From Oasisia sp. SBJ-2009 (Eukaryota; Annelida; Polychaeta; Sabellida; Siboglinidae), in contig OZ024861.1 in NCBI GenBank assembly GCA_964017155.1, positions 23,582,713-23,646,712 of the forward strand: a DNA stretch of 64,000 nucleotides, read 5' to 3'. Both the position numbers and the translations under genes were made by a program. A model generated the notes under the pieces. That model saw only the letters and a list, made by a program, of their open reading frames with translations, did no database searches and had not been told where the DNA came from. This document shows, in pieces, positions 17,101 through 62,973 of this stretch (position 1 is the stretch's first letter; every line of letters starts with the position of its first letter).

Positions 17101-20100
17101 TGAAAGTTGAAGATGATAGAACATTCAATTATGATTGTTAAAATTATTATTAATATTCACACAGGGAAATGTAAAAACTTCTACAGTTAAATTTTAGATC
17201 TGTCTTGTTTCAGAATAATTTGTAATAACTAAGACGTGAACCAATTTTTTACATTTAGTATGTATGTTATATATTTTGTTCAATCACTGAACAAATTACT
17301 TTTGACTGAGCTCAGTTTTGGAAAAGTATCTAAATGTTAGCCTATTTGCATTTAAAAGGTTATCAAATTTTAAGATTAAAGCCATTTGTTTTGCCAATTT
17401 CAATAAACATACACCAAATTACTCAGACAGAGTAAATGACACAGTTGTATTATGTAATCTAAGGATGCAATGGGGAACTAAAAAGACGTCTTGTCGCTCA
17501 CTTTGTTTCAGGCAGTTGTCTCCTACGTCAAGGCTGTGTTTCTGATGAAGAACAAACAAGTGTTTGACGTCACCAAACTAGATGTGGACAAGTATGCTAA
17601 GTACGTGTCATGTGTCATTCCTTCACACAGATAGCTGTGTTGATGAAATAAAGACTATTGGGTCACAGCGACATCACACAGTTGTGATTGTATTGTATTG
17701 TATTTTATTATTGTCTTGTCATTTTGGTAGATATATCATTTATTGTAGTTCACTCAGTGGTATGTTATATTCAACTGTATCTCTCTCTCTATCTCCTCTC
17801 TTTCCTCTCTATCTCTCCCCTTCTCCCCCTCTCTCTGTTGAATATAAAATACCATCTCTCTCTCTCCCCCTTCTCTCTCTCTCTCTCTGTCTCTCTGTCT
17901 CTGACACACACATACACACACATACACACACATACACACACGTACACACACATACACACACACACGTACACACACGTACACACACGTACACACACGTACA
18001 CACACACATACACACACACATACACACACACACACGTACACACACGTACATACACACACATACACACACATACACATACACACACACACACACACACACA
18101 CACACAAACACACACAAACACACACACTTCAGTGTGTAATGCATCTCTGTGTTATTGCCTGTTCACTCAACATAGTCTTGTAGTTCAGTTGTGTTTTCTA
18201 GTTCAATCTTGCCTTGTGCTTCAGTTATGTATTACACTGTATAGTTCAGTCTTGTAGTTCAGTTGTGTTTTCTAGTTCAATCTTGCCTTGTGCTTCAGTT
18301 ATGTATTACACTGTATAGTTCAGTCTTGTAGTTCAGTTGTGTTTTCTAGTTCAATCTTGCCTTGTGCTTCAGTTATGTATTACACTGTATAGTTCAGTCT
18401 TGTAGTTCAGTTGTGATTTCTAGTTCAATCTTGCCTTGTGCTTCAGTTGTGTATTACACTGTATAGTTCAGTCTTGTAGTTCAGTTGTGTTTTCTAGATC
18501 AATCTTGCCTTGTGCTTCAGTTATGTATTACACTGTATAGTTCAGTCTTGTAGTTCAGTTGTGATTTCTAGTTCAATCTTGCCTTGTGCTTCAGTTGTGT
18601 ATTACACTGTATAGTTCAGTCTTGTAGTTCAGTTGTGTTTTCTAGTTCAATCTTGCCTTGTGCTTCAGTTATGTATTACACTATATAGTTCAGTCTTGTA
18701 GTTCAGTTGTGATTTCTAGTTCAATCTTGCCTTGTGCTTCAGTTATGTATTACACTATATAGTTCAGTCTTGTAGTTGTGCGTTCTAATGTAGTATTGTC
18801 TTGTAGTTCAATGGGTCTGGCTGTCACACCGCGCCTCAGATTCCTACAGAAGTATCAGAAGCAGCAGTCACTGAAGCGTGACACAGCCCGTGATGCAGCC
18901 AACCGTGACACTAACCCTCAGCACACTTCCCTCCTCCCTGGGGGGAGTGAGGAGGAAGAAACAGGGAGTGAGGATGAGGCCGCTCTACCCCAACCCCCTC
19001 GCATGCAGCAGGAGGCGTTTGGGTTTGAAGTGGAAGATGATTTGGATGACATACTGAAAGTGAAAGCAAAAACGACAGTGTCCAGCTCAGACGATGACAT
19101 GGAAGAGGACCACGGTGGCATGGCTGAGGTAATTGTGCTCTTTTTTATAGAAAACTTGCAGGATGTTTCTCCCCTGGTGGTGCTACATCTGCACATGTGC
19201 AGAAGAGTATCCTGGAGTATTCGGAAACAGTTTTTGTTTTGACATAAATCATTTGTAAAAGTTTTAACAAGTGATGTAAAACATTCTCTGTTGAGTGCAA
19301 TCAAACGTCAAAACATTCCTTCATATAAGATAAAACATTATAACATTATGAGTTTATGACTTATAAATAATCAATTTACGTCTGCTTGAATTATCTGAAC
19401 GGCAAGTAAAAAATCATTACATTTACCAAAAAATAAAGGTGTTACATTTGTTTGGAAGGATTTGTAGAAATGTATTGAAATTATATAACTAGATATATTT
19501 GTTTTAACTATTTAAGGTGTCATGAACGAATATGTTTTTAATTTACTCTTATTATTAAATACAATGTGTGTGGGAATTGTTATTTCTAAGTCAAACATGT
19601 AAATATGTTGTATAGTTAAAGAATTATGTACAGGTGTAAACTGCGAATTATTTAAAATCTACGTATTGTCAAACTCACCTTACATTCATCTTGGTAATAC
19701 AGCCGCCTCCCAATTAAGGCCACATGGCATAGATCTATTTTTCTGTAACAGTAAAGTATAGGGAGTTAGGAGTATTGTTAATACAGTCACCTCGCTATTA
19801 AGGTAATTTCGGCTCAGTTCCACTACACTGTGTCAAGACACATACACTTTATTGTTTGATATCTTTAAAAGAAAATTGAGCTGTCATGTTCCCGCAGGTA
19901 AACCCATCTGCAAAGTCAAAGAAACTGCTGACAAAGTTTGCCCTGGCAAAGAAACTCGCCAAGAAAAACATTCAAGTCAACACCAAAGTTGTGTTTGATG
20001 ATGAAGGCAAGGTAAGTCCAGCGGGTCTTTTGTGGAATATTGGGGATGGTTTCTTCAAAAAAATAACTATGGGATTATTTACCATATAACATTATCCACA

Positions 20101-61900: not shown

Positions 61901-62973
61901 TCCTCCAAACACAGCTGAGTGACCATGAGGGTTCAGGGAGATGATCTGTGTACCTTGGTGTGTGCGTGTGACTCTCTGTACTGCTGTGTGAGTTCGTCAA
62001 ACACGTGCCCGTACTCTTCGTAGATCTTCTGCATCTCGTTGATGTGTTCAGCCACTGCTTCCATGCCCCGCAGAGCCTCTACAACACACCACAGACGTCA
62101 TCTAACACACCAAGTCATCGTCTACTACACTGCAGTCATCATCCAATGCATCACAGTCACCATCTAACACACTGCAGTCATCATCTATCACACCACAGTC
62201 ATAATCTAACACATCACAGTCACTGCCTATTATGATCTAACACACTAAGTCATAATCTAACACACTGCAGTCATCATCTAACACACTGCAGTCATCATCT
62301 ATCACACCACAGTCATAATCTAACACATCACAGTCACTGCCTATTATGATCTAACACACTGCAGTCATCATCTATCACACCACAGTCATAATCTAACACA
62401 TCACAGTCACTGCCTATTATGATCTAACACACTAAGTCATAATCTAACACACTGCAGTCATCATCTGTCACATGAGTCATATTCTAACATACCATTGTCA
62501 TCATCTAATACATTGCAGTCATCATCTAACACATTACAGTCATAATCTAACACATTACAGTCATAATCTAACACATTACAGTCATAATCTAACACATTAC
62601 AGTCATAATCTAACAAATTACAGTCATAATCTAACACATTACAGTCATCACCTAACACACTGCAGTCATCATCAAACACATATCAGTCAACCTCCTAACA
62701 TGCTACAGTCATCAAGTAACGCACCACAGTTATTATATATTACAACAGTCATCAACCATCATCTAACACACCATCTACAGCCGTGTGATACCCCACCTGA
62801 TAGATGATGGTGTTCGTCTGTCTGTAGGTCAGTGAGGTCACACAGTTGCCGTAGCAACAAGGGGTACTTGAGGATCCTCTGGATGGGTTTGATGAGGAAT
62901 GACTCGAGCGTTGCTGAGTGTTGTTGTTTCGGGTTGCGGGCGCGCAGGAACTCTTGCAGGGGAGCATTCGTCT
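58987..62973 (-). CDS. TIAM1: TIAM/still-life-type Rac guanine exchange factor, 3' part
   Basis: Five exons read leftward: 62973-62797, 62078-61954, 61332-61156, 60738-60551, 59671-58987 (stop at 58989). Phases join as 1-1-0-0-2. The first two encode the end of the DH (RhoGEF) domain: [35 protein letters not shown], then [20 protein letters not shown]. The next three encode the C-terminal PH domain ([53 protein letters not shown]) and a basic, Ser-rich tail with no recognised domain. Order and motifs follow human TIAM1; TIAM1 versus TIAM2/sif cannot be settled. The family loads GTP onto Rac at the membrane. The 5' part lies beyond the right edge. The C-terminus is uncertain: a repeat array abuts the stop, and a possible donor (CCAA|GTATGC) precedes it. 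Confidence 0.88.
61333..61690 (-). repeat. 77-bp minisatellite copying the PH-domain exon acceptor
   Basis: About 4.5 units with an exact 77-bp period occur (GAGTGACACT at 61361, 61438, 61515, 61592). In gene sense each unit holds TTGTTGCAG|ACTCTAGACC plus the first ~45 nt of the exon at 61332-61156, then returns to intron sequence. The copies nearest the exon are almost perfect and the farthest are diverged. Confidence 0.95.
62085..62765 (-). repeat. 21-bp-class minisatellite filling a TIAM-like intron
   Basis: Plus-strand units ATCTAACACACTGCAGTCATC with TATCACACCACAGTCATA and TTACAGTCATA variants (quoted in shortened form) make up nearly the whole intron 62079-62796. Some longer ~85-bp blocks are themselves repeated (62174-62440). 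In gene sense many units carry CTGCAG, an acceptor-like word, and the array runs to within about 10 nt of the true acceptor TTGTAG at 62079. Confidence 0.9.

Follow-up and report, generated by a model that had tools for sequence, protein, structure and literature searches.

The 64,000-nucleotide stretch analysed here (the window: C8:23582713-23646712 of the 764-Mb, 33-contig assembly of the annelid Oasisia sp. SBJ-2009) contains four genes whose introns carry minisatellite arrays, many of them lying against or across the splice acceptor. Exons were placed from the sequence, with an open frame demanded across each junction. The result is 37 exons and 33 introns; the joined frames contain no in-frame stop, and the borders are GT-AG in all 33 introns. 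The four genes, in window coordinates, are as follows.

9723..24044, plus strand: DDX10-like gene; 16 exons, 15 introns; unbroken frame; Pfam DEAD, Helicase_C and CTE_SPB4 on the first 454 aa
26219..30806, minus strand: PAAF1-like gene; 7 exons, 6 introns; unbroken frame; Pfam WD40
43675..53131, plus strand: WDTC1-like gene; 10 exons, 9 introns; unbroken frame; Pfam WD40 on the first six exons
60551..62973, minus strand: TIAM-like gene; 4 exons, 3 introns; unbroken frame; Pfam RhoGEF and PH_Tiam1

The DDX10-like and WDTC1-like proteins were given to Pfam in part only, and the predicted domains agree with the four gene identities as far as they reach. Beyond that support, DDX10, PAAF1, TIAM and WDTC1 are what we take these genes to be.

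Tandem arrays at intron 3' ends

Tandem Repeats Finder (TRF) returned 88 rows for the window. Array edges move with the strand scanned, and values are therefore given both for one strand (the sense strand) and for the union of both strands. Arrays with a period below 9 were excluded from every TRF count at splice sites, and one exonic array (47732-47778) was left out of these counts. Acceptors are written below as last intron base/first exon base, or by the first exon base alone.

18174..18777, plus strand: 74-bp array, 8.2 copies; DDX10-like; stops 29 nt before acceptor 18806/18807 (TRF)
20115..22696, plus strand: 27-bp array; occupies most of DDX10 intron 13 (20012-22689); crosses acceptor 22689/22690 by 7 nt, or 12 nt with both strands
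28695..28904, minus strand: 50/89-bp array; PAAF1-like; ends short of the acceptor, by 27 nt with both strands and by 107 nt with one; exon start 28667
30164..30371, minus strand: array based on a 16-bp unit; PAAF1-like; ends short of the acceptor, by 5 nt on one strand and by 1 nt with both; exon start 30158
44401..44881, plus strand: 34-bp array, 14.2 copies; WDTC1-like; crosses acceptor 44870/44871 by 11 nt
48080..48424, plus strand: 21-bp array; WDTC1-like; mid-intron, away from splice sites (a counter-example)
49207..50424, plus strand: 26-bp array, 46 copies; WDTC1-like; stops 2 nt before acceptor 50426/50427
50760..50947, plus strand: old 78-bp duplication, 2.4 copies; WDTC1-like; crosses acceptor 50932/50933 by 15 nt
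52750..52954, plus strand: 40-bp array, 5.1 copies; WDTC1-like; crosses acceptor 52938/52939 by 16 nt
61287..61693, minus strand: 77-bp array, 5.3 copies; TIAM-like; crosses the acceptor by 46 nt; exon start 61332
62078..62771, minus strand: array based on a 21-bp unit; TIAM-like intron 1, which it fills; crosses the acceptor (exon start 62078) by 1 nt

With both strands scanned, an array crosses an acceptor or ends within 30 nt of one in 10 of the 33 introns, and a single intron has an array edge that close to its donor. Six arrays extend past the acceptor and reach 1 to 46 nt into exon sequence, and none runs across a donor (0/33). Nine acceptor arrays make up 6,432 of the 25,318 intron bases (25%) of the four genes.

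A sequence-only reading of this DNA had reported that arrays recur at intron 3' ends in four genes and on both strands, which is what the counts give. It had named five cases in which the acceptor and first exon bases fall inside the unit, and all five are real: DDX10 18807 (unit 74; the TRF array stops 29 nt short, with 13 copies of the junction present), DDX10 22690 (27), WDTC1 44871 (34), WDTC1 52939 (40) and TIAM 61332 (77). The arrays it placed close to an acceptor were also borne out at WDTC1 50427 (2 nt), PAAF1 30158 (5 or 1 nt), TIAM 62078 (crossing by 1) and PAAF1 28667 (107 or 27 nt). A further one, in WDTC1 "intron 1", could not be confirmed, as no array adjoins the exon near 42983, and the acceptor array at WDTC1 50933 (50760-50947) had been overlooked. 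Its remark that no array spans a donor holds for the 33 mapped donors.

On the donor side, the array of TIAM intron 1 starts 25 nt past the donor with both strands scanned and 84 nt past it with one; the other nearest starts are at 37 nt (WDTC1 intron 2) and 103 nt (DDX10 intron 13).

As a measure of chance, each array of the window was slid at random inside its own intron. With both strands there are 14 intronic arrays of period at least 9; 10 are acceptor-side, where 3.49 are expected (permutation p = 6e-5), and one lies within 30 nt of a donor, where 3.48 are expected (p = 0.077). On the sense strand alone, 9 of 13 arrays are at acceptors (p = 2.1e-4) and 0 of 13 at donors (p = 0.019); scanning the second strand brought in PAAF1 intron 3 on the acceptor side and TIAM intron 1 on the donor side. 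The acceptor excess in the window is thus firm, and the avoidance of donors by array edges is not significant. All of these p values flatter the case, because the finding was chosen for looking so.

Copied junctions and decoy acceptors

We also searched for copies of the splice junction itself, taking 22 bases across each splice site and looking up to 1,500 nt into the intron for matches with no more than 6 mismatches. Copies occur at 8 of 33 acceptors vs. 0 of 33 donors in the window (Fisher p = 0.0048); shuffled acceptor templates yield 0 to 0.25 copies per intron. The exon head is part of the repeat unit at WDTC1 44871, 50933 and 52939, at DDX10 22690 and at TIAM 61332, and also at two loci outside the window (L036 and L040, described below).

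Most copies retain the acceptor dinucleotide. The AG is kept in 12 of 13 junction copies at DDX10 18807, in 11 of 13 at WDTC1 44871, in 4 of 4 at WDTC1 52939 and in 5 of 5 at TIAM 61332, where the first copy of the array in intron 2 is a diverged form of the same junction. At WDTC1 50427 (intron 6) it is kept in 0 of 16, with TGTGG replacing TGTAG, and in the PAAF1 array at 30164..30371 the final unit has TGTAG and many other units have TGTAC.

DDX10 intron 13 is the most extended case, with 100 junction copies, 76 of which keep the AG. Its unit reads TTGTTGTAG up to the junction and GAGGTTGCTGACGTGA beyond it. Seventy decoys score above the real acceptor or at most 1 bit below it, on a matrix that was trained on the same 33 window introns and gives descriptive scores. 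The array begins directly after an ordinary-looking intron tail, CCATTTCTGTTGTTGTAG, and opens with a copied exon head. If this tail is the old acceptor, the ancestral intron would have measured about 114 nt, compared with 2,678 nt today.

Use of a decoy would rarely go unpunished: among 112 AG decoys in six introns, 107 would bring in a stop and 4 a frameshift only, and one would give an open insertion. The unbroken frame across the joined exons fits use of the last acceptor, and the exon-proximal site is probably the one used despite the many intact decoys. If the genes work, that copy must be chosen most times. The arrays are in this respect natural tests of acceptor choice, with 70 near-equal decoys in a single intron and nearly all examined decoys predicted to break the message.

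Loci outside the window

For comparison we assembled ten gene loci (L032-L041) from kinesin and chaperonin exon matches, the latter giving one usable gene (L041), and four genes found in 20 even-step 10-kb stretches. Their splice sites were picked by hand. Totals of acceptors and donors differ (94 vs. 88, window included) because matches without a clear site were dropped.

These independent loci lean the same way as the window, to acceptors over donors. Copies of the junction occur at three of their acceptors: 13 at L040, all with the AG kept (13/13), and one each at L036 and L041. The array at L039 lies inside the intron, its start 18 nt from a likely donor that it does not cross. Pooling the window with the independent loci puts junction copies at 11 of 94 acceptors vs. 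0 of 88 donors (Fisher p = 7.6e-4). The acceptor-only bias is firm in the pooled data; the independent loci alone are too few.

The pooled counts bear on the idea of a selection filter, by which duplications would arise equally at both intron ends, donor copies being purged as spoiling splicing and acceptor copies tolerated. The empty donor column (0/88) is what it predicts, and the donor-side variable number tandem repeat (VNTR) of human ABCA7, with a 25-bp unit, is described as going with one-unit retention and length-dependent exon skipping (PMC5954066). However, acceptor decoys would be equally harmful (107 of 112 give a stop), amphioxus arrays are reported at both intron ends in excerpts of PMC3087553, and a filter alone leaves unexplained why arrays sit at the acceptor rather than in mid-intron (10 of 14 arrays within 30 nt). 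We regard it as unlikely to be the main cause, although it is the strongest of the rivals.

A second concern is ascertainment: minisatellites may simply be widespread, and the finding chosen because several chanced to sit at acceptors. Arrays of period at least 9 are indeed present in 19 of the 20 even-step stretches, the genes in four of these stretches lack copies at all 17 of their acceptors and all 18 of their donors, and the bias in the independent loci is not significant. Against this, many units contain the exon head, an outcome that random placement does not produce; the shuffled-template rate is 0 to 0.25 copies per intron, and three independent acceptors carry copies. Chance selection of this kind seems to us very improbable as the whole explanation.

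The genome was also searched for three copies of a splice-site word with gaps of 14-44 bases, each word compared with the same word reversed. Acceptor words gave 2719 vs. 559 triples for TTGCAGG (4.9x), 7442 vs. 3552 for TTGTAGG (2.1x) and 1382 vs. 632 for TTTCAGG (2.2x); donor words gave 15815 vs. 15852 for AGGTGAG (1.0x) and 5189 vs. 5368 for AGGTAAG (0.97x). TTGCAGG is the only acceptor word that stands out from the controls, in triple counts that are dominated by long arrays; as a single word it occurs 11 times in 200 kb, vs. 13 for its reverse. Among the first 100 TTGCAGG-triple places listed are arrays that combine a T/G-rich tract and CAG with downstream sequence that varies between arrays, and one of them (C1:26456945-26457251) looks coding-like by eye. 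A genome-wide acceptor bias is suggested but not shown, and we place no weight on the word counts for it.

Acceptor-likeness was scored for 52 arrays from 28 other stretches (the 20 even-step stretches and L001-L008), with periods below 15, units above 130 bases and low-complexity units dropped. We had considered that every minisatellite in this genome might be acceptor-like. These arrays are at chance level and most are not of the acceptor kind, and the idea was rejected.

Two further observations belong here. The unit of a 32-bp array with 167 copies (L030:6-5341) contains a strong acceptor-like site, scoring 11.0 (97th percentile among shuffles). At C11:42398629-42400806 and C2:56694896-56697199, chaperonin exon matches occur in pairs about 2 kb apart that share the same open-frame length per pair (819 and 781 aa), as would be expected if the intervening intron were a stop-poor array.

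Unit sequence and the origin of the arrays

The units of different arrays are mutually unrelated: 3 of 78 pairs match at E<=1, all weakly, the best over 21 bases at 90%. Spread of introner-like elements was rejected on this ground, related sequence across introns being absent. The same lack of kinship argues against a function of the arrays in splicing, for instance as landing sites for splicing factors or as decoys that slow splicing. A parallel exists in the Caenorhabditis elegans minisatellite CeRep25B, over-represented near alternative splicing regions according to an excerpt of PMC4039745, but we consider such a function extremely improbable here.

On the sense strand, 12 of the 13 arrays lying at acceptors or close to them have T+G above 0.5 (L034 and L041 are outside this count), and in introns without acceptor arrays T+G is 0.55 in the last 60 nt vs. 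0.50 in the bodies. Three arrays have microhomologies of 5-7 bases at their edges, found by eye: TTTGACC (WDTC1 44401/44881), ACATC (WDTC1 52750/52954) and TGTCA (TIAM 61693/61287). Short repeats at both ends of the duplicated piece would fit slippage or microhomology-mediated duplication. The sequence-only reading had held that the rule shared by the arrays is position relative to transcription and not sequence; the first half stands, on both strands and with unrelated units, but sequence is not irrelevant, given the T/G richness and these microhomologies.

The polarity with respect to transcription, on both strands, could also point to damage linked to transcription or splicing, in which R-loops or spliceosome pausing would cause breaks at the 3' splice site that are repaired with tandem duplication. 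Sense-strand G is high and C low in several arrays (DDX10 intron 13, G 0.39 and C 0.06; WDTC1 intron 6, G 0.33 and C 0.06). But WDTC1 introns 2, 7 and 9 and array L040b have no G-over-C skew, and slippage on T/G-rich sequence would explain the same facts with no need of breaks or R-loops. We give this reading a low probability, below that of the selection filter.

On balance, the arrays are probably minisatellites of the mirage type described from amphioxus, seeded by microhomology-mediated duplication at T/G-rich intron ends and later expanded; the seeding, the expansion and the choice of acceptor are what we infer from the features above. A segment from the T/G-rich intron tail, over the AG and into the first exon bases, would be duplicated in tandem between short microhomologies, by replication slippage or a similar event. 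Slippage or unequal exchange would then expand and homogenise the array. The intron would lengthen at its 3' end, and the protein would be kept since the copy adjacent to the exon stays a working acceptor, probably selected through exon definition.

Several results weigh against this explanation or its extension to the genome. Outside the window, 3 of 61 acceptors vs. 0 of 55 donors have junction copies (Fisher p = 0.25), and 5 of 61 vs. 1 of 55 have an array edge no more than 30 nt away (Fisher p = 0.21). Avoidance of donors by array edges in the window is weak with both strands (p 0.077, compared with 0.019 on one strand). The microhomologies are three cases picked out by eye and may reflect chance. 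One array, 17 nt short of the L040 acceptor, is C/A-rich, and the 52 arrays from other stretches lack acceptor-like units (mean percentile 0.46, p 0.32). In the word test, a permuted non-splice word, TGATTGG, gave 4270 triples vs. 1884 reversed (2.3x), an excess similar to that of two acceptor words, and TTTCAGG on its own occurs 23 times in 200 kb vs. 11 for its reverse. Donor mirages are known in amphioxus and in human. Finally, use of the last acceptor is something we infer from the coding frame.

More tentative is a lineage-wide reading, in which the 3' splice site would be a hotspot for the birth of tandem repeats, with about one acceptor in ten carrying a mirage, donors spared, introns growing at their 3' ends, and dozens of equally strong upstream acceptors routinely ignored. 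We think it possible but lean against it, the more so because donor avoidance by edges loses significance with both strands. If the polarity does hold genome-wide, the intron end would be both a birthplace of minisatellites and a route of intron growth.

Comparison with known systems

Splice-spanning minisatellites are so far known mainly from amphioxus, where mirage minisatellites are described in Adh3, the globins Gb6 and Gb9, TnC and PGBD5 (PMC3087553, PMC3902484; both available in part). The sequence-only reading was right that such arrays exist at amphioxus Adh; the present case is an annelid one. In the sections available, tandem units likewise span the intron-exon boundary, each unit holding the splice signal and part of the exon, with lengths from 10-72 bp (Adh3) to 150-160 bp (Gb6), and are said not to disturb regular splicing (PMC3087553, PMC3902484). 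The annelid arrays share three of the defining features: their units are minisatellite-sized (16-78 bp in the window), the boundary is spanned in six window arrays and at L036, L040 and L041, and the splice signal is kept in most copies. Length instability between alleles or somatic cells also belongs to the mirage kind; the present analysis covered one assembly.

They differ from the amphioxus cases in phylum and in density (10 of 33 introns of one window with an array within 30 nt of the acceptor). As far as those sources go, both boundaries are involved in amphioxus (Gb9, 3' boundary of exon 2; PGBD5, 5' and 3' splice sites), in contrast to the 11/94 acceptors and 0/88 donors here. The annelid arrays extend the known mirage kind, and a rule restricted to acceptors is possibly new, supported in the pooled data and unproven on the independent loci. 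If such arrays occur both in an annelid and in amphioxus, the process would either be old and overlooked so far or have arisen more than once.

The ABCA7 VNTR, in intron 18, resembles the present arrays in being a 25-bp minisatellite whose first bases are the splice site, and its longest allele enlarges the intron eightfold; unlike them it is on the donor side and at a single locus (PMC5954066, in part). Minisatellites in intron 1 of an earthworm metallothionein are also annelid and intronic, but the portion of PMC12783039 covered here does not place them across a splice site. Intron gain by tandem genomic duplication, as outlined in part of PMC3443670, also copies splice signals; there an exonic segment becomes a new intron, whereas here existing introns grow. 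Among the matches listed in the open-access literature, we found no paper on annelid splice-site minisatellites. The human IFI6 (6-16) minisatellite reportedly has a unit that holds a splice site, giving multiple donor sites of which several are used in mRNA, and in being donor-sided it differs from the annelid arrays.

Other features of the window and assembly

Minisatellites with 16-, 21- and 40/60-bp units (58230-58981) begin directly behind the stop codon of the minus-strand TIAM-like gene, likely in its 3' untranslated region. Between the PAAF1-like and WDTC1-like genes, 34927-39333 contains blocks of a 10-bp repeat of the GAGAAACGCG type in a larger duplicated structure, and at 39416-40055 a perfect (GGAGAGAC)n tract adjoins a perfect (CAGG)n tract, with 100% matches over 277 and 359 bases. 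A minus-strand open frame at 2599-3468 resembles, by eye, the endonuclease part of a non-long-terminal-repeat retrotransposon.

Elsewhere in the assembly, contig C33 is the mitochondrial genome (15,483 bp), with all genes on one strand in what we take to be the annelid ground pattern of gene order. Its COX1 shares 86% identity with a UniRef entry labelled Siboglinidae and 95% with an ENA protein; the named matches ranked P0006 to P0053 carry annelid names, at 74-78%, and a mollusc name first appears at P0059. Mitochondrial gene order and COX1 both point to an annelid, and amphioxus was rejected as the source on these grounds. A long, simple AT-rich repeat between tRNA-Arg and tRNA-His (C33:12900-13450) is likely the control region.

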